Source: TM7 phylum sp. oral taxon 348 (lineage in GTDB: Bacteria > Patescibacteriota > Saccharimonadia > Saccharimonadales > Saccharimonadaceae). Taken from it: 64,000 nt of DNA. Each line of letters opens with the position of its first letter. The first letter of the stretch is position 1. Below are positions 47,272 through 64,000 of this stretch, one piece after another. The notes beneath the pieces are model-generated. The model was not told the origin of the DNA, ran no database searches, and saw nothing but the letters and a program-made list of their open reading frames with translations. Both the position numbers and the translations under genes were made by a program. The DNA is taken from positions 62,001 to 126,000 of the forward strand of contig SDRW01000002.1 in NCBI GenBank assembly GCA_007845485.1, written 5' to 3'.

Positions 47272-47292
47272 GGACTAATAATACATTTTACT

Positions 47293-47340
47293 GCGATTTT
47301 CGTAAAATCGCTTGACAAAGGATTCCAGTATTGATATATA
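47293..47340 (+). promoter_or_regulatory. Cassette A promoter with upstream inverted repeat
   Basis: TTGACA (47312-47317), 17 nt, TATATA (47335-47340). Directly upstream is GCGATTTT/AAAATCGC (47293-47300 and 47304-47311), a perfect 8-bp inverted repeat that is a likely operator. The same layout occurs at 61265-61312. Confidence 0.7.
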
Positions 47341-47345
47341 TATCA

Positions 47346-47452
47346 GCCTTTGCAACCGCAAGGGTCGGCGTTTCGCCCGAGTCAATCGGGCTTGAGACGC
47401 CCCACTTCGCAGAGAATTACGATTCTCTGCCCGACTCCAGAAGGAGTACAAA
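47346..47452 (+). promoter_or_regulatory. Conserved structured leader RNA, copy A
   Basis: Three stems are visible: GGCGTTTC/GAGACGCC (47367-47374, 47394-47401) continued by GCCCGA/TCGGGC; GCAGAGAAT/ATTCTCTGC (47409-47417, 47422-47430); and ACTCC-AGAA-GGAGT (47434-47447), whose 3' arm is the ribosome site of the gene at 47453. Copy B at 61316 keeps the folds with compensating base changes. It could be a riboswitch, thermosensor or protein-binding leader. Confidence 0.7.
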
Positions 47453-47704
47453 ATGGAAACCACCGGATGGTTTGACGGGAAACCGGCAAAGATTCGGCGC
47501 TCCGGCGGAACTACTGAGATCTTCTATGGTGGCGCTTGGGGTAACATCCCTGGCGATGGTCACGGACACGTGAAGGCGCAGGGAGGCTCTCTCGGCGAGT
47601 TCATTGTCTACTGGCGACTGCCTGAGAGCGAGGGCGGTGCTACTGTCATCGACAACTGGGCCAGCTCTGAGCGTCTCTCAGATCACATGTCTGGTCTCTG
47701 GTAG
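47453..47704 (+). CDS. Small Gly/Trp-rich protein under the conserved leader
   Basis: An 83-residue protein with many Gly, Trp and Ser residues (GGAWGNIPGDGHGHVKAQGG) and no Cys or membrane span. It looks like a small beta-rich domain. I recognise no family. The ribosome site is inside the leader's last hairpin. Its GC content is higher than that of the surrounding DNA. It shares its promoter and leader with the unrelated Cys-rich gene at 61427, so the regulatory block appears to be used with exchangeable small genes. Confidence 0.65.
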   Translation: METTGWFDGKPAKIRRSGGTTEIFYGGAWGNIPGDGHGHVKAQGGSLGEFIVYWRLPESEGGATVIDNWASSERLSDHMSGLW

Positions 47705-47717
47705 AGTTCCTAGACCT

Positions 47718-47739
47718 GGACAAGTCACAAAACTGTCCA
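47718..47739 (+). repeat. GGAC...GTCC hairpin element, copy A
   Basis: TGGAC-A-AGT pairs with ACT-GTCCA around CACAAA, an 8-bp stem with one bulge. Copies at 51281-51302 and 61637-61658 are in the same position between leader-driven unit and leaderless gene. It may end the upstream transcript. Confidence 0.65.
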
Positions 47740-47772
47740 TTTTCCCACTTAAAATAGTACAATTATAGAGAC

Positions 47773-48156
47773 ATGAAAAATAGCATCAATATCGCAATAC
47801 CAGACTTTATCACCCAAGCCTTTCCTATACTTAAAGAGGCAACGTACGTCCGTGAGTTTGCTTCTTTCATCACACTATATCCAGACGCAGTCTATTATTT
47901 GTTTCAGACAACATCCAATCAGTCGCTCATACTTGTAGCAATTGATTATCCTGACCCCATCGACGAGAGCCGGCAGGTAAAGAGTTTGTCTGGCGGGTTT
48001 GAGTTTGAATTTATACACCTCATCAAGCCGTACGCCAACGACCAGCATATTGAGATCCGTCCGAATGACAACATGGATGAAATGTTTTCTGTTCCAGACC
48101 CAGATAGCTATTTCCACTATTATTTAGCGGCAGCGAAACAGAAACTGGATTGGTGA
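47773..48156 (+). CDS. Hypothetical protein, cassette-associated
   Basis: A 127-residue protein, family unknown, with alternating hydrophobic strands (YLFQTTSNQSLILVAIDYP, GFEFEFIHLI) and a PDPDS...YYL end. TACAAT at 47758-47763 lies 9 nt before the ATG, so the mRNA is leaderless or nearly so. A decayed paralogue is at 53218-53379 (KFKFEFTYLI and FIPDSNNYY), which shows the family has been duplicated here. A 9-bp GC hairpin follows the gene. Confidence 0.6.
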   Translation: MKNSINIAIPDFITQAFPILKEATYVREFASFITLYPDAVYYLFQTTSNQSLILVAIDYPDPIDESRQVKSLSGGFEFEFIHLIKPYANDQHIEIRPNDNMDEMFSVPDPDSYFHYYLAAAKQKLDW

Positions 48157-48195
48157 TTTTATCCTAGCTAAGAGCTTCTGAGTTCGAGAAGACCT

Positions 48196-48228
48196 CGCCC
48201 TGGCAGTACAATCTGTTGGGGCGGGGTA
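48196..48228 (+). terminator. GC-rich hairpin after the gene at 47773
   Basis: ACCTCGCCC pairs with GGGCGGGGT (one G-U). It is followed by the promoter of the next gene. Confidence 0.5.
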
Positions 48229-48238
48229 CTCACTCTGT

Positions 48239-48250
48239 TACAATGAACCT
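48239..48250 (+). promoter_or_regulatory. -10 box of leaderless HxxEH gene 1
   Basis: TACAAT at 48239-48244 ends exactly 6 nt before the ATG at 48251. Confidence 0.6.
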
Positions 48251-49153
48251 ATGATCCACAAACTATATTCCGCTTACGATCTGCCAGCCGACCATGATAT
48301 CTGCCATTTGTTTGAGCATTTGGTTATTCGGCGGTTCTTGCGAATGGTAGAAAAATCCGGCAATGAGCGCGCTTTCATTGGTGAATTACACGGCACAACA
48401 TCCGAATCAAGCGTGTTTTTTGACGTCGCATTCTTTGCTCGTGAATCAATCACGCTATTTGAAAAAGTCATCGCTGACGTAAAGCCGTTTGATCTATCCA
48501 TGATTCGCGAATCCGTCGCCCATATAGAGGCTGAGATGAAATCAAGTATTATTATTTGGGATGAAAAAGAATTACGCAAACAACTGGCGCGCTGCCAAAA
48601 AGATTTCGCAGATCGCCGCTCTATCAAGCCTAAAAAAGCTATCAAAGCTATTAAATCAACCAAAAACCCACCGCTAGAAATTGACTACCAGCCAGAAGAC
48701 TTCATAGATTTTACACTGACAATTGAAATTTCCGATGCCAGCGACCAAGCAACTGCCGCCTTTTTCTGTATGTACCCGATATTGCTTGATTTGGTGTGCA
48801 GCGCCTGCTTTGACCTAGCGCCAGTCTATCCATCCACCCGCGACGAATTTACTGCCTATCATGACGGCAATTCGGTCAGCCAAACCTACACCGTGAAAAA
48901 ATCCTTTGATTGGCAAAATGCAGGCAAAGCAGCGCAAAACTATTTACGAACATTTGACCCTGCACCGCACGCCAGCCGCCTAAATGATCTCGCCGAGGCG
49001 TTCACGACCGACCCATTCTACAATTCCGCGCCAATTTATTTTTACCAGAAAACTGCTACGCCATTTACTAAAGAAGACTTAGCAAAAAGCATTACTGTAG
49101 CGAATCTGCAGGTAATATTGCAGCAGGTTGTGGTTAATGTTTCTGCGAAATAA
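48251..49153 (+). CDS. HxxEH protein 1, M16 metallopeptidase-like
   Basis: A 300-residue cytoplasmic protein. Residues 19-23 read HLFEH, the inverted zinc motif HxxEH of M16 (pitrilysin/insulinase) peptidases, in a matching hydrophobic setting. A possible third ligand lies about 70 residues on in SVAHIEAEMKSS (Glu93 or Glu95), close to the M16 spacing. A Lys/Ile-rich linker near 118-135 separates two halves. At this size it is much smaller than two-lobe M16 enzymes and probably would need to pair. Similar proteins are at 62199 and 63114, and a deleted copy at 51333. Proteolysis is inferred from motif only. Confidence 0.5.
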   Translation: MIHKLYSAYDLPADHDICHLFEHLVIRRFLRMVEKSGNERAFIGELHGTTSESSVFFDVAFFARESITLFEKVIADVKPFDLSMIRESVAHIEAEMKSSIIIWDEKELRKQLARCQKDFADRRSIKPKKAIKAIKSTKNPPLEIDYQPEDFIDFTLTIEISDASDQATAAFFCMYPILLDLVCSACFDLAPVYPSTRDEFTAYHDGNSVSQTYTVKKSFDWQNAGKAAQNYLRTFDPAPHASRLNDLAEAFTTDPFYNSAPIYFYQKTATPFTKEDLAKSITVANLQVILQQVVVNVSAK

Positions 49154-49196
49154 TTTACATTACCAACCGCAAGCTTATTGATGGGTACTAGGATTA

Positions 49197-49225
49197 TTGT
49201 ACGAATTAACACGTTTTCTTATACT
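49197..49225 (+). promoter_or_regulatory. Promoter of the leaderless gene at 49232
   Basis: TTGTAC (49197-49202), 17 nt and TATACT (49220-49225); the ATG follows after 6 nt. Confidence 0.7.
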
Positions 49226-49231
49226 TAATTT

Positions 49232-49663
49232 ATGAATATTACCCGTTACCTCGCCGCTGCCATTCGCGCCAACGACCTGCCAGCCTACCAGCGCGAGCGC
49301 TACCCCGCTATCCCAGACGGCGAGATTGTTTGGTTTGTGAATGAGGACTTTTCTGGTGTTGATTTTGATCAGTTTGTCATGGGATTTTTCGCGTTTGAAA
49401 ATTGCAATCTGGATTATGCAAAGCATATTTACGGGCAGCCGATTTATTTTACCAATTCGTCGGTTCGGGATGTGGATTTTCGCGGTGTCAAAGCTATTAT
49501 TGAGGCAGAGGATTGCGACTTTCGCGGCATGAAATATGATAAGGAAACACAATTTGTCTATGGTAGCGGTGAATTGGCAGTGCGATCGCGCTTTATGAAT
49601 TGCAGGTTGGATGATGAGGCGCAAAAGTTTTTAATGCGGCAGGGTGTGGATATTAGTCTCTAA
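49232..49663 (+). CDS. Pentapeptide-repeat-like hypothetical protein
   Basis: A 143-residue protein. Its N-terminal part (AAAIRANDLPAYQRERYPAI) is conserved in the truncated copy at 62007. The C-terminal half has spaced hydrophobic/aromatic units (SVRDVDFRGVK, CDFRGMKY, RFMNCRLDD) reminiscent of short pentapeptide-type beta-helix repeats. Function unknown. It is leaderless and part of the cassette group, after the HxxEH gene. Confidence 0.55.
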   Translation: MNITRYLAAAIRANDLPAYQRERYPAIPDGEIVWFVNEDFSGVDFDQFVMGFFAFENCNLDYAKHIYGQPIYFTNSSVRDVDFRGVKAIIEAEDCDFRGMKYDKETQFVYGSGELAVRSRFMNCRLDDEAQKFLMRQGVDISL

Positions 49664-50427
49664 CCTCTTTTTATTTCATGAACCATTATCAGCGTAGCAA
49701 TTGAGCTGCTCATATTCTCTGCTCCTGCCACTTTGTGCAGCTCCTGAATAAACGCTACCTCTTTCTTGGGCCACTCGTGGTAAGGCAAGGCTTCCCTCGC
49801 GTAGAAGCGTATTGCCGCATCACCATAGGGATATGTTGCAAGTTCATTTGTATAATCTGCAACAGTTGCCCGTGCAGTCCAGCTTCCGACTCTATGTATT
49901 TTCATAAGCTCATCTAATAGATCTGGCGCTTGAATCTTCTCCAACATATCGGCGTGTTCTAAGATAAATCGTGCTGCGTTCTTAAGCACATCTTTCTTGA
50001 AGCTCATTCCCATCCGCTGATATGTACTATCGGGAGTTTCCAAAACCTTCTGTGGACTAGGAAATAGATGGTAGTGTATACCACTTGTTAAGATGACCCT
50101 TTCCCCTACATATTCTGAAAAGATGCGATACATATTCTTTGCTTGACTAGCTCGTATTACCTGACGAATAATATTAGTGCCAATACAGTCCCATAAATTT
50201 GGGCACTGTATACGATAGATGTACGCCGCAGAAGGGCTATCTACAAGCTTATCATTCTTTTTAAATTCCATGTAGGATGCGTTACCCTCTAGTAAGGTAT
50301 GCTTGTCTTGAGATAGCACGGAGTATACTAATCCGTCAGCGGTTTCATGTGCACATATAAACGTTCCAGTTTCTGTCTTCACCCACGAATAGTGGTCGGT
50401 TAGATAGTACTTGCTGCTGTCTTTCAT
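49660..50427 (-). CDS. HhH-GPD DNA glycosylase, AlkA-like
   Basis: A 255-residue base-excision repair enzyme. The helix-hairpin-helix is LMKIHRVGSWTARATVADY and the catalytic Asp lies in YPYGDAAIRFYARE, as in AlkA/3-methyladenine glycosylases. No Cys cluster follows, so it is not an EndoIII-type protein. The N-terminal 90 residues resemble the AlkA beta domain. It converges on the previous gene with a 4-nt overlap. Confidence 0.8.
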   Translation of the reverse strand: MKDSSKYYLTDHYSWVKTETGTFICAHETADGLVYSVLSQDKHTLLEGNASYMEFKKNDKLVDSPSAAYIYRIQCPNLWDCIGTNIIRQVIRASQAKNMYRIFSEYVGERVILTSGIHYHLFPSPQKVLETPDSTYQRMGMSFKKDVLKNAARFILEHADMLEKIQAPDLLDELMKIHRVGSWTARATVADYTNELATYPYGDAAIRFYAREALPYHEWPKKEVAFIQELHKVAGAENMSSSIATLIMVHEIKRG

Positions 50428-50489
50428 GCTAAGCTTTTGTTGTATTTATATTTTTTAGATAATTTACCGCGTTATTTAGTCTGCCATGA

Positions 50490-51062
50490 TTAATTAATGA
50501 TACTTAAATTTCTAATACTCGTATCATAAGGAATCGTCCATAATTTACCATCAATATTTAGATTTTTGAGGAATGTATGCATTTGTCGCTGGATATCACC
50601 AGCGTTTGCGTCGTCTTCTGCCAGGACTTCCAATTCAATAAACAGCCCAAGCTTAGTTACTTCATCAATGCAAATCGTGTAATCTTTGGTTTTTGATTCA
50701 AGGCGGATTTTATCAACCGTAACGATTTCTTTCCAGCCTAGTACTGTGAGCATTTGGCGTGCCGCATTGCCATCGCTAACAGTAAACTCGTATTCATCAG
50801 ACACTAGTTTTGTCTGCCCCTCGACCTTCAGAGTCATCAAGCTTTGTTGCAGCTCACCAGTTTCCGGATTAAGAACATCGCGCACTCGCATAATCTTTGA
50901 GCCGGGAATGATAGGCGCGTCAACCTGTTCGGGAAGAAGGAATATAGTGTCGATCTGGTGTTTGCTTGAGATGGGTGCGATGAATTGGCTTTTTAGTATG
51001 GCGATGAGACTATCGCGAGTAATGTCAGATGATAGTTTGAATTTGGATTCGATTTCAATCAT
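50490..51062 (-). CDS. CYTH domain protein
   Basis: A 190-residue CYTH-fold enzyme (class IV adenylate cyclase / thiamine triphosphatase / triphosphate tunnel family). The start MIEIESKFKL holds the ExExK motif, and MRVRD, SLMTLKVEG, DEYEF, DKIRLES and ICIDEVTKLGLFIELEVL line the expected tunnel. These enzymes act on triphosphates such as thiamine triphosphate or inorganic triphosphate; which one is unknown. Confidence 0.85.
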   Translation of the reverse strand: MIEIESKFKLSSDITRDSLIAILKSQFIAPISSKHQIDTIFLLPEQVDAPIIPGSKIMRVRDVLNPETGELQQSLMTLKVEGQTKLVSDEYEFTVSDGNAARQMLTVLGWKEIVTVDKIRLESKTKDYTICIDEVTKLGLFIELEVLAEDDANAGDIQRQMHTFLKNLNIDGKLWTIPYDTSIRNLSIIN

Positions 51063-51139
51063 AAGTTATTGTTATTTGAGAATTAATTATATTTTAGCAG
51101 ATTTACATAATTAAGTAAGTCGCTAAATAGGTATTGATT

Positions 51140-51302
51140 CTGTAAATTAGCTTGATATAGAATTATACATGTTTTTCCCGAATCTATTGGGTTTGAAGCG
51201 TTTCATCTCGAAGACTGCAAATAACATATTAATAATGGTCGTGTCATAGGGTAACGGCATATGACGTCAATCTTCCAACTTGGAGAAGTCGATAAACTGT
51301 CC
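51140..51302 (+). repeat. Decayed third copy of cassette promoter, leader and GGAC hairpin
   Basis: GTAAATTAGCTTGAT near 51143 matches the promoter block of copy B. The piece TTGGGTTTGAAGCG near 51187 matches its leader. GGAGAAGTCGATAAACTGTCC at 51282-51302 matches the hairpin with one arm mutated. No small gene remains between them. This shows the block was present at least three times. Confidence 0.6.
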
Positions 51303-51332
51303 ATATTCTCTGTGATAATATAATAGATGACG

Positions 51333-51659
51333 ATGCAACGAATCCTTATCTGTAAACAAGCTGCTTCGCCTATTGAGGCGCATATCTATGAGCATCTAGC
51401 GATGACTAAATTAAAGCAGACCATGCAACAATCTGGATTATTACGGCAAACGTCCTAAACCGTTTCTCTGATTATATCTCGTCGCTATCCTACACGAATA
51501 ATCCATGCGCGACGCCAGACAGTTGCCAGATTGCGCGAGAATTCGGAATAATCATCGGCGCGGCAGGTTGGGAGAAACTTGCTACCACAGAAAATATAGC
51601 AAAAGCTTTGAAGGCAACGCATATCACTCTCCTTTATAAAAACAATATAACTAATTCTA
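51333..51659 (+). pseudogene. Deleted copy of an HxxEH gene
   Basis: The first 40 codons are nearly identical to those of the gene at 62199 (RILICKQAASPIEAHIYEH). After GLLRQ the sequence jumps to a C-terminal part of another paralogue (FSDYISSLSYTNNPCATPDS and REFGIIIGAAGWEKLA), in another frame. The C-terminal piece resembles the end of the gene at 63114. A recombination between tandem copies is the simplest cause. TATAAT lies at 51319-51324, as for a leaderless gene. Confidence 0.8.
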
Positions 51660-51845
51660 TTAGTTGTCATATAAATTAGGTTTATAGGTTTAGTTATTTG
51701 TACTTCAAGCTGTCTAGTAGAATGAGTTATAATCAAAGTAGTAAAATTTTTACAAAGAATTACATTGATAAATATTTACTCCCAGTATGAAGGAGGTATT
51801 CACTACAATTTCCCTGTGCCCCTTGATATTCCCGTGAATGACAAT

Positions 51846-60903: not shown

Positions 60904-61264
60904 TTGACTATCCTTTCCGTTGATTAATCAACACATTGTAGTAGAGCTTTGAGACTACCACGGTACTTTTTCTAAACTACCATGGTACTTTTCGAAAAGT
61001 ACCACGTTGGTTTTCACTGAGCGAGTGTTGCCTCTTAAAAACAGGGGTGACAGTCGATAAATTGGAGTCTGGAGGCTATCAAAACACCGCTTAATGAATT
61101 ATCTTTTCGCGAGTTACATCACCGCCCCACCTCCTTTCGGATTACAGCCACCGCCGCCGCAAGCCGCGATGCTGGTTGTGCTTTTAGTATAGCATGGATG
61201 GGGCGGAAAGGCGAAAAGCTGGCTGATTTTGTATTTGTGCGGTTGTAGCATGGTGGAATTGACG
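60904..61264. other. Spacer with 20-bp palindrome and GC-rich patch
   Basis: GGTACTTTTCGAAAAGTACC (60984-61003) is a perfect 20-bp palindrome; a partial copy CGGTACTTTTT lies at 60961. On the minus strand a short Gly/Cys-rich reading frame (AACGGGGCNPKGGGAVM) ends at 61114; it has TATACT upstream but no normal start codon. No certain gene is seen. Confidence 0.45.
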
Positions 61265-61312
61265 GTGATTTCCGTAAAATTGCTTGATTTCGGGCTCTAG
61301 TATTGATATACT
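61265..61312 (+). promoter_or_regulatory. Cassette B promoter with upstream inverted repeat
   Basis: TTGATT (61284-61289), 17 nt, TATACT (61307-61312). GTGATTT/AAAATTGC (61265-61271, 61276-61283) is the slightly imperfect counterpart of the repeat before cassette A. Confidence 0.65.
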
Positions 61313-61315
61313 GCT

Positions 61316-61426
61316 ATCCAGCCTTTGCAGTTGCAGAGGTTAGCGTTTCACCTAAAGCCATTGGGTTTGAGACACTCCAATTTGCGGAGAGCTACAATTC
61401 TCCGCCCGACTCCAGAAGGAGTTATT
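61316..61426 (+). promoter_or_regulatory. Conserved structured leader RNA, copy B
   Basis: Aligns with copy A over its whole length. The stem GCGGAGA/TCTCCGC (61384-61390, 61399-61405) has a G-C pair where copy A has A-T, a compensating change. The AGCGTTTC/GAGACACT stem is kept with one mismatch, and ACTCC-AGAA-GGAGT (61409-61422) again buries the ribosome site. Confidence 0.7.
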
Positions 61427-61624
61427 ATGGCACGTGGCAGTAAGTGTCCCGACACTGGATTAAAGCGCAAGTATTGCTTCTGTTCCAAGTGTATTACGAT
61501 ACAGAACAACGCCATCCAACGCAGTGGTAACCTGCGGAGAGACCGCAAGAGTACCAACCGTAGGGAGCACGACACTAAGGGTCGTAACTACCACGGTCGT
61601 AGCGATAATTGCAAGTGGTGCTAG
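61427..61624 (+). CDS. Small basic Cys-rich protein under the conserved leader
   Basis: A 65-residue protein, highly basic (many Arg and Lys), with six cysteines: Cys7, a CFCSKC group at 17-22, and CKWC at the end (62-65). The pairs suggest a zinc-binding fold. No family is recognised. The start lies 4 nt after the hairpin-held GGAGT. It occupies the same place as the unrelated 83-residue gene of cassette A. Confidence 0.6.
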   Translation: MARGSKCPDTGLKRKYCFCSKCITIQNNAIQRSGNLRRDRKSTNRREHDTKGRNYHGRSDNCKWC

Positions 61625-61636
61625 CCATTCTGACCC

Positions 61637-61658
61637 GGACAAGTCGATAAACTGTCCA
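61637..61658 (+). repeat. GGAC...GTCC hairpin element, copy B
   Basis: GGAC-A-AGT [CGATAA] ACT-GTCC, same design as copy A, ending just before the promoter of the gene at 61682. Confidence 0.65.
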
Positions 61659-61681
61659 CTTATCCTTGATAAAATAATCCT

Positions 61682-61951
61682 ATGTATAAACAACGAGACG
61701 AATATACTGCAGCACGAGAAATTATTGATTTATATTACGATACACCTGATTCTGCCGATATTATAGAGTCTCTCAGTTGTATCTGTTTTTCGTTGGCGCG
61801 AACTTTCGAACAAGATGGTAAAAGAACTATATGGGATGATATGTTTGATTATTTTGATCAAGATTATATGGCAATTGAAAAGAAACTAGAGCGCCCAAAT
61901 CGTCAGATAATTGATGACTTGTATCGCGAGGTTATCAATCATATACACTAG
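61682..61951 (+). CDS. Small acidic hypothetical protein
   Basis: An 89-residue helical protein rich in Asp, Glu and Tyr (RTIWDDMFDYFDQDYM). TAAAAT (61670-61675) ends exactly 6 nt before the ATG, so it is probably leaderless. It takes the place of the 127-residue gene in cassette A but is not similar. Family unknown. Confidence 0.55.
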   Translation: MYKQRDEYTAAREIIDLYYDTPDSADIIESLSCICFSLARTFEQDGKRTIWDDMFDYFDQDYMAIEKKLERPNRQIIDDLYREVINHIH

Positions 61952-62006
61952 CACACACCTACCCTCGCCCTTGACATAAAACAAAAAACTGCTCTATCCT
62001 TGAACT

Positions 62007-62189
62007 ATGAAGAAAGCTAATAACCACAAAATAGCTGCCGCCATCCGCGCGGGCAACCTTCCCGCTTACCAGCGCCAGCGCTACCCCGCTATTCCAGACG
62101 GCGAGATTGTGCGGTTTACCAGCGAAGATTTTTCTAATGTGGATTTTGATAAGTTCGCGAGGCTGAAAACTGTGATTTTCGCGGCATGA
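62007..62189 (+). pseudogene. Internally deleted copy of the gene at 49232
   Basis: The first 45 codons match the pentapeptide-like protein (AAAIRAGNLPAYQRQRYPAI, then DGEIVRF and FSNVDFDKF). A deletion then joins FDKFAR to a late segment equal to GGCATGAAGTATGA, and the frame ends. TTGACA (61971-61976), 18 nt and TATCCT place the ATG 6 nt after the -10. The HxxEH gene starts 10 nt downstream and depends on this promoter. Confidence 0.75.
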
Positions 62190-62198
62190 AGTATGACG

Positions 62199-63104
62199 AT
62201 GCAACGAATTCTTATCTGTAAACAAGCTGCTTCGCCCATTGAGGCGCATATTTATGAGCATCTAGCGATGACTAAATTAAAGCAGACCATGCAACAATCT
62301 GGATTATTACGGCAAATTGATTATTTTGCACTCGGTACGCACTATTCGGGTACAGGATTTATCACTATTGATATTGATTTATATACGGAAGAAGCAGTTA
62401 ATCTGGCGCATGATTTGCGGCAACTTCAAGCACTTACAGATAACGAATCTTTGAACTTAGCCATGAGTCAAATCGCCGCAGGAAATGATTGTACGATTAT
62501 TTGCAATAATCTTGATAAACTCCAATATGACATAGCTAAATTAAACAAAAACGATTGGCAACCAATTGAAAAAATCGACCAGCCACTCATTATTAGTCAG
62601 CTTGCCGAACACAAATTCCTGTACGAGACCGACGATCCTATTACGTCGATTAGCCACATCTCTTGCGCCCTTAAGCAACCGCTAAATAGCGACATGATGC
62701 TGTTAGCTTTATTTTATTATCTGGCTTTTGCCATTCATGGTACAGTATCCGACATAGCCAATGTTCGTTTGGGATATTATAATCTTAGTGAACATGCTGA
62801 ACGAATTAATAAAAGTACGTCTTGTATTTGCGAATTTGCCGCACTTAGCAATTTAGCAGACAGAGCCAAACTACTAGACATATACCATGAAGTTATCGGA
62901 AAAATGCTAGAAAAAACGGCTCTAGCGCGCATTTCTCGCCGCATTAAATCCTTTTCGTACAACGACGGGAAAATGAACGTTCCAAATATCGATATGTATA
63001 TTTCAGAAATCGGCATTGTTGCTGGTGAAAAAACTTGGCAGAAATTAGCAAAAGAAAAAACAATTGCTAATTTGATAAATAAAATAATCCTTGAAATAGT
63101 GTAA
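62199..63104 (+). CDS. HxxEH protein 2, M16-like but ligand-poor
   Basis: A protein of 301 residues from the second ATG (62199), the start shared with the deleted copy at 51333. HIYEH occurs at about residue 17-21 in the same place as in the other family members. The downstream segment that carries Glu in the others (SVAHIEAEM, ALSHIIAEE) here reads AMSQIAAGND, so the third zinc ligand may be lost. The end reads SEIGIVAGEKTWQKLAK, similar to the other copies. It may be a non-catalytic partner subunit. Confidence 0.5.
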   Translation: MQRILICKQAASPIEAHIYEHLAMTKLKQTMQQSGLLRQIDYFALGTHYSGTGFITIDIDLYTEEAVNLAHDLRQLQALTDNESLNLAMSQIAAGNDCTIICNNLDKLQYDIAKLNKNDWQPIEKIDQPLIISQLAEHKFLYETDDPITSISHISCALKQPLNSDMMLLALFYYLAFAIHGTVSDIANVRLGYYNLSEHAERINKSTSCICEFAALSNLADRAKLLDIYHEVIGKMLEKTALARISRRIKSFSYNDGKMNVPNIDMYISEIGIVAGEKTWQKLAKEKTIANLINKIILEIV

Positions 63105-63113: not shown

Positions 63114-64000
63114 ATGAAGCACTTCACTCTCGTCAAATACCATCCCTGCACACAGCTCGCTCATCTTTACGAGCATTTGTTTGTTACCACGGTCGCCTTA
63201 CCTTTACCGCCACGGGCAATACAAGCTGTTGGATTACGCGCTCAATGGTGCTACTTATGATTCTGGCGTGATCATTATCTCTGCGGAATGTTACGCCAAA
63301 ACGTCAGCAAAATTACTTCAAGAGTTAGCTATGATGAAGACTGATTTTGGCGAAGCTCCTTTTTACTTGCCGATTTCACGAGCTTTATCACATATTATCG
63401 CCGAAGAGCCAGAGGTGATTTTTATTGGTGATGTCGATACGATAATCGGCGAATTGAGATTGCTTGATGACCAGCCTTGGCAAGATTTAGATTCGGTTGA
63501 ATTGTTGCCAAAAGATGTGCACGGAGATAAAAAGTTGCTTGATCTGATGTATACTACCGATCAGCCAGCTGTCAAGCCACGTAAGATCAAGCTGCAATTA
63601 CAGTTTAGTGATCCATCAATTGAGCTGCGTATGTTGTGGCGCGAATTGGTGCGCTTTTTGAATTTATCAATCGGGCAAAAAGTTTGCCAAGAGTTCGGTA
63701 CTTACTTTACTGATGAATCTGTCAAAGATAGCGCAAATTCAACGACAGTAGTTAGTATATTTTTGGTCAATTCTCACATACTGCCGGCAACAAAAATAGA
63801 GGAAATCGCCGCAAGCGTTAAACACACTCTAGAAACGATCACTATGCCAGAAGTTCTACAACGTTTTGCGAATTATCTATCACTAGCTTCTTATTCTGCC
63901 AATCCGCATGCCGCCCCAGACGAGGATCGTCTACTTAGGGAATTTGGAGCCATCTTAGGCTCTGCTGGCTGGAAGAAGATTGCTAGCGTAGAGAATTTGA
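63114..64000 (+). pseudogene. HxxEH gene 3, frameshifted and cut by the window end
   Basis: It opens MKHFTLVKYHPCTQLAHLYEHLF with the HxxEH motif, but the frame stops after about 48 codons. Another frame continues with YRHGQYKLLDYALNGATYDS, ALSHIIAEEPEVIF and REFGAILGSAGWKKIAS to the end of the window. The break lies near 63195. HIIAEE supplies a candidate third ligand. It is either a new pseudogene or a sequencing error. Confidence 0.65.

Follow-up and report, generated by a model that had tools for sequence, protein, structure and literature searches.

The window analyzed here is a 64,000-nucleotide stretch (G000:C7:62001-126000) of an 890-kb genome assembled in 19 contigs. A search with CAYNTNTWYGARCAY, an HxxEH pattern with a central aromatic residue, returned four sites in the window against 0.08 expected, at 48305 (gene A), 51381 (a gene remnant), 62247 (gene B) and 63162 (gene C), confirming the three HxxEH genes and one deleted copy of the original prediction. 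Two further pattern sites, L010:7198 and L004:10017, are on the strand opposite genes read as ATP synthase b subunit and histidine kinase, and were dismissed as chance. Gene A (48251-49153, + strand) encodes a 300-aa predicted compact M16-fold zinc peptidase, as judged by its open reading frame, relatives and AlphaFold2 model. Its HLFEH codons (48305-48319, +; residues 19-23), located by the pattern search, would supply two zinc-binding His residues and the catalytic Glu, and the codon of Glu95 (48533-48535, +), separated from the motif by 71 residues, is predicted to supply the third zinc ligand based on conservation and on hhalign alignment to the M16 distal Glu. Gene B (62193-63104, +; 303 aa) carries HIYEH at residues 19-23 and is assigned the same fold by AlphaFold2, Foldseek and alignment; in the alignment, Gly97 replaces the third-ligand Glu. 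Gene C (63114 to the window end at 64000, +) carries HLYEH at 63162-63176 and keeps the distal Glu. It is frameshifted near 63.2 kb, with a second frame running from 63181 past the window end to C7:126068, and is 41-43% identical to an intact relative in genome G132; whether by true decay or by mis-assembly, its frame is broken in the assembly. A fourth full copy, the intact gene D with HLLEH, lies on contig C18 and adjoins the gene of a 567-aa protein. Pairwise identity among A, B, C and D is ~13-22% over the alignable parts. The features ascribed to individual members hold: A and C keep the distal Glu ~70 residues on, B lacks the third ligand, and at ~300 residues the chains are smaller than classical M16 proteins (400-440 aa for M16B subunits).

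The remnant at 51 kb is composed of two pieces. The first (51327-51450, +) is a 124-nt copy of the 5' end of B including HIYEH, 98% identical to 62193-62316, and the second (51449-51679, +), fused to the B piece in a different frame, consists of ~76 codons from the 3' terminus of a C-type gene and is 50% identical to C over 70 aa. This arrangement indicates that B and C genes formerly stood in tandem at 51 kb also, and the 51-kb copy is decaying. The B remnant is the only recent duplicate among the copies. Two collinear, diverged blocks at window positions 47287-51450 and 61259-62316 share repeat families D1-D6 at 67-98% identity and go back to a segmental duplication of old date, since reduced by deletions; in it, the pentapeptide gene preceding B is shortened. 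A 43-nt repeat (family D4) occurs upstream of the gene at 47773 (47714-47756, +), upstream of the B remnant (51278-51320, +), and upstream of the gene at 61682 and B (61633-61675, +). It carries the inverted repeat GGACA-N11-TGTCC (three sites versus 0 expected) and is a probable shared promoter or operator. A site resembling this repeat precedes the A-type operon in G132 (L127).

With B as the query, 18 of 198 genomes from the window's taxonomic family yielded relatives, and a profile search found them in 32 of 394 sampled genomes of that family; a wider profile also reached families f26 and f31 of the order. A phylum-wide search yielded only two weak, short matches outside the order, which were attributed either to chance or to the motif of genuine M16 proteins. 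No relatives were found with A as sole query against genome contigs and viral contigs, with query A2 against viral contigs, or with B against plasmids. Relatives in named records are Saccharibacteria, which are tiny symbiotic bacteria, including TM7 oral taxon 352 and Microsaccharimonas; the small size and the gene set of the genome analyzed here fit this group. Many genomes carry a single copy. Pfam, NCBIfam, PHROGs and PADLOC gave no above-threshold match for copies A-D, a PDB sequence search gave no usable match for the family, and only one of 33 members touched PF05193 when PF00675 and PF05193 were searched (E 0.015, below the cut-off). The literature searched likewise held no account of such a compact M16-fold family. 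The family is previously unnamed and undescribed, restricted to one order and patchy in Saccharibacteria. It is separate from the universal ~430-aa M16 protein of Saccharibacteria, which was found in 41 of 41 relatives.

In a tree built by a quick method with SH-aLRT as the sole support measure, A groups with members from G148, G080, G128 and G165 (SH-aLRT 100), B with G120 (99), C with G132 and G148 (100), and D with G085 (96). Since the four copies fall in separate clades with relatives from other genera, they are old lineages and not a fresh local expansion. The proposed expansion at this locus is thus mostly wrong, and stands only for the B remnant as a recent duplicate. Relatives of the A type are 43-56% identical. 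G148 and G132 are close relatives that differ in which copy is broken: the C-type gene is split in G148 (L121) and intact in G132, and the A-type gene contains a stop in G132 (L127) and is intact in G148. In G104 (C1:32002-32844; L024, L123), the open frame of a member enters a long stretch of Ns, which accounts for an apparent 10,957-aa open frame.

Within the family, the H, E and H of HxxEH are kept in 41, 41 and 42 of 43 scorable members and the distal Glu in 44 of 46. These catalytic residues are near-invariant while identity between members is only 10-40%. In a set of 248 unrelated ORFs of 200 aa or more taken from these loci, N-terminal HxxEH was absent throughout. The spacing from the second His to the distal Glu is 68-77 residues, mostly 71-73; in MPP-beta the His-to-Glu spacing is ~76 (PMC9291397). 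Purifying selection acts in two subfamilies, with dN/dS of 0.11 and 0.16 in two closer pairs, the first of which has dS near saturation. In many members the HxxEH begins at residue 17-20, which leaves no room for a signal peptide.

A link to M16 was also recovered at the profile level. When the wider family alignment (A6) was compared by hhalign with a local universal-M16 alignment, the match reached a probability of 80% (E 1.3e-5, 117 columns), pairing HLFEH with HIMEH and Glu95 with the distal Glu of M16, versus at most 3.6% in 21 controls (20 column-shuffled and one reversed). Masking HxxEH weakened the match to E 0.087 with the register kept, indicating that most of the local signal is the motif; in global mode the E value was 4.6e-7. 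The wider alignment was used, as the narrower alignment A1 aligned over the HxxEH stretch alone.

AlphaFold2 models of A (pLDDT 76, pTM 0.59) and B (pLDDT 88.6, pTM 0.89), each built on a 10-sequence alignment, were compared with known structures by Foldseek. For both models, all of the best 50 PDB matches listed were M16 proteins, with best E values of 1.5e-7 for A and 4e-7 for B and match probabilities of 0.98-1.00. The matches listed include processing peptidases, bc1 core proteins, TTHA1265, YmfF/YmfH, an AlbEF homologue, PqqL, FusC, PqqF and IDE. Nine matches at E ≤ 0.001 were obtained in a viral structure library, and the eight of these that are named are all M16/insulinase-type or zinc proteases. 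Together with the hhalign alignment of the three ligand positions to genuine M16, these matches indicate that the original prediction was right at the level of fold and active site; no unrelated fold stood among the best 50 PDB matches listed for either model. The description of the protein as a single unit does not survive, as the models show two consecutive M16-type domains. The order of elements in the models is b-a-bb-aa-b-a followed by b-a-bb-aaaaa-b, which appears close to a shortened version of the M16 D1/D2 pattern given in a review (PMC12731061). The modelled chain would thereby comprise two M16 domains of minimal size and correspond to a single M16B half in shrunken form, and from this topology His19, His23 and Glu95 of A should meet in space.

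Over both domains, TM-scores of A and B to their Foldseek matches were 0.26-0.36 with an rmsd of ~15 Å, which means that the chain as a whole fails to superpose on a known M16 half. Either the domains are placed differently from those of M16 or the modelled orientation is off. Because the B model is confident (pTM 0.89) yet has a TM-score of ~0.3 to its M16 matches, the two domains of the 300-residue chain may be arranged unlike those of any solved M16 half, such that a single chain or small homodimer would be a complete peptidase with no need of a four-domain clamshell; we hold this arrangement to be possible, if doubtful.

Taken together, the data make it probable that A is a member of an undescribed family of compact zinc metalloendopeptidases with the M16 fold, confined to a single order. 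The constrained HxxEH and Glu, the M16 fold, the lack of room for a signal peptide, the patchy spread and the frequent decay all suggest an accessory zinc endopeptidase that acts on small peptides in the cytosol. For A, we infer a first domain in which HxxEH and the distal Glu would bind zinc and the Glu of HxxEH would activate the attacking water for proteolysis, and a second domain that would serve as a motif-less companion, as does the second domain of an M16B subunit. A would act in the cytosol on short peptides, and M16 enzymes typically take short polypeptides (PMC12731061). It is probably a dimer forming a small clamshell. Alongside the universal 430-aa M16, it would be an accessory enzyme that can be dispensed with and diverges quickly. 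B, in contrast to A, is a derived copy without the third ligand and probably has an inactive or a regulatory role.

Loss of ligands in some members raises two other readings, which the conservation and distribution data address. The original prediction had suggested active/inactive heteromers, in which a catalytic member and a ligand-deficient one such as B would form a two-chain clamshell like MPP or AlbF/AlbE. Such M16B pairs are known (PMC12731061), and the placement of several copies agrees with it: B, without its third ligand, adjoins C, the two probably also stood in tandem at 51 kb, and an active-type member in G015 has a divergent, motif-less member next to it. However, the closest relatives of B (in G120) and of C (in G132 and G148) are without the other type alongside, many genomes hold a single copy, and 44 of 46 members keep the Glu, and we consider pairing of this kind rather unlikely. 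A less likely reading again is that the M16 fold is kept for a non-proteolytic job in binding or as a scaffold, as in the bc1 core proteins. A ligand or the motif is gone in B and in two more members, and the Arg of the R/Y pair of the M16 second domain is not conserved in the family: a Tyr stands at the helix-strand loop in 30 of 45 members with no conserved Arg shortly before it. This pair is absent in both MPP and the core proteins. The near-invariance of the catalytic Glu and ligands at 10-20% identity argues for catalysis.

The genes around A, B and C encode Nudix, HAM1, DUF3850/ASCH, CYTH, pentapeptide and small unknown proteins. Directly upstream of A lies the gene of a 127-aa protein of unknown function (47773-48156, +; phmmer E 1e-69 to L127:6837-7217), which precedes the A-type gene in G132 also; the search for conserved neighbours found no partner beyond this gene in G132. 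Several of these surrounding genes are also found close to the A-type genes of G132 and G148, in changed order, suggesting a shared accessory island. In G080, G128 and G165, the A-type gene adjoins apparent L7/L12 or L10 ribosomal protein genes, as well as a gene whose product begins MSELPEKQ. The region L004:6673-9357 (C7:126673-129357) together with window positions 61682-61951 encodes a GHGH coiled-coil protein, a protein with three ~95-aa repeats and several ~90-aa paralogues, and looks like an effector/immunity-type island.

The small neighbouring proteins had also been taken to fit peptide natural-product processing, in which the enzymes would trim precursor peptides like AlbE/AlbF. M16 proteins do such processing elsewhere (PMC12731061), a small YcaO gene is present in the genome (C7:188284-189087), and subfamily A occurs in three of the four genomes that have this YcaO type. 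The neighbourhood given above does not agree with this proposal, as no RiPP cluster adjoins, none of the genes next to A, B or C was recognised as a maturation gene, and none of the three lies in a peptide natural-product gene cluster. The YcaO gene is ~77 kb from A and is not adjacent to the A-type gene in G128 or G148. It is also 96-99% identical across three genera versus 43-56% for the relatives of A, a far greater uniformity that indicates a separate and recent spread of YcaO. Being unlinked and very different in divergence, the co-occurrence of YcaO with subfamily A was set aside as a functional tie, and we regard natural-product processing as highly improbable here. The 268-aa YcaO protein, encoded behind a 171-aa protein starting VITMGGINCGGGGGG at G000:C7:187701-189090 (L178:7701-9090), is found at L183:7208-8591 and L184:7648-9031 as well; the 96-99% identity is among G000, G128 and G148, and falls to 37% in G144. 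YcaO and the 171-aa protein are a possible peptide-modifying cassette.

The family represents a novel, compact form of the M16 fold, and would add a compact, lineage-specific M16 branch that is missed by current family models; its carriers live on other bacteria and have largely unannotated genomes. The family provides a small natural test of how much M16 clamshell peptidase action needs, and B is an intact natural ligand-loss variant that can be compared with active relatives.

The nearest comparison within the same bacterial order is the universal ~430-aa M16 (G000:C7, L001, HIMEH), whose ligands align with those of the compact family by profile. The universal protein is matched by PF00675/PF05193, whereas the compact family is patchy and unmatched. 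LuxS has an HTLEH-type motif and the same fold class, with a single domain and a Cys ligand; it was not among the PDB Foldseek matches listed for A and B. M16B subunits (MPP, TTHA1264/1265, SPH2681/2682 and BHP) share with the compact family the HxxEH and distal Glu, the position of the motif in the first domain, and two consecutive similar domains, and the Foldseek matches of the family include MPP, TTHA1265 and a Sphingomonas M16B subunit. In contrast to these subunits of 400-440 aa, the ~300-aa compact proteins are missing the N-terminal strands and several helices, have a Glu spacing of 68-77 versus about 76, have no Pfam match, and superpose poorly over the whole chain. AlbE/AlbF are an M16B pair that acts on the subtilosin precursor (PMC12731061), and a 347-residue AlbEF homologue chain is among the Foldseek matches of A; no AlbE/AlbF-like cluster is found at the compact-family loci here. 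The Giardia processing peptidase, which derives from mitochondrial MPP and for which no sequence closeness to the compact family was found, is a lone beta-MPP subunit that underwent reductive evolution and functions as a monomer (PMC2597178), and thus provides a precedent for a lone M16 half working alone.
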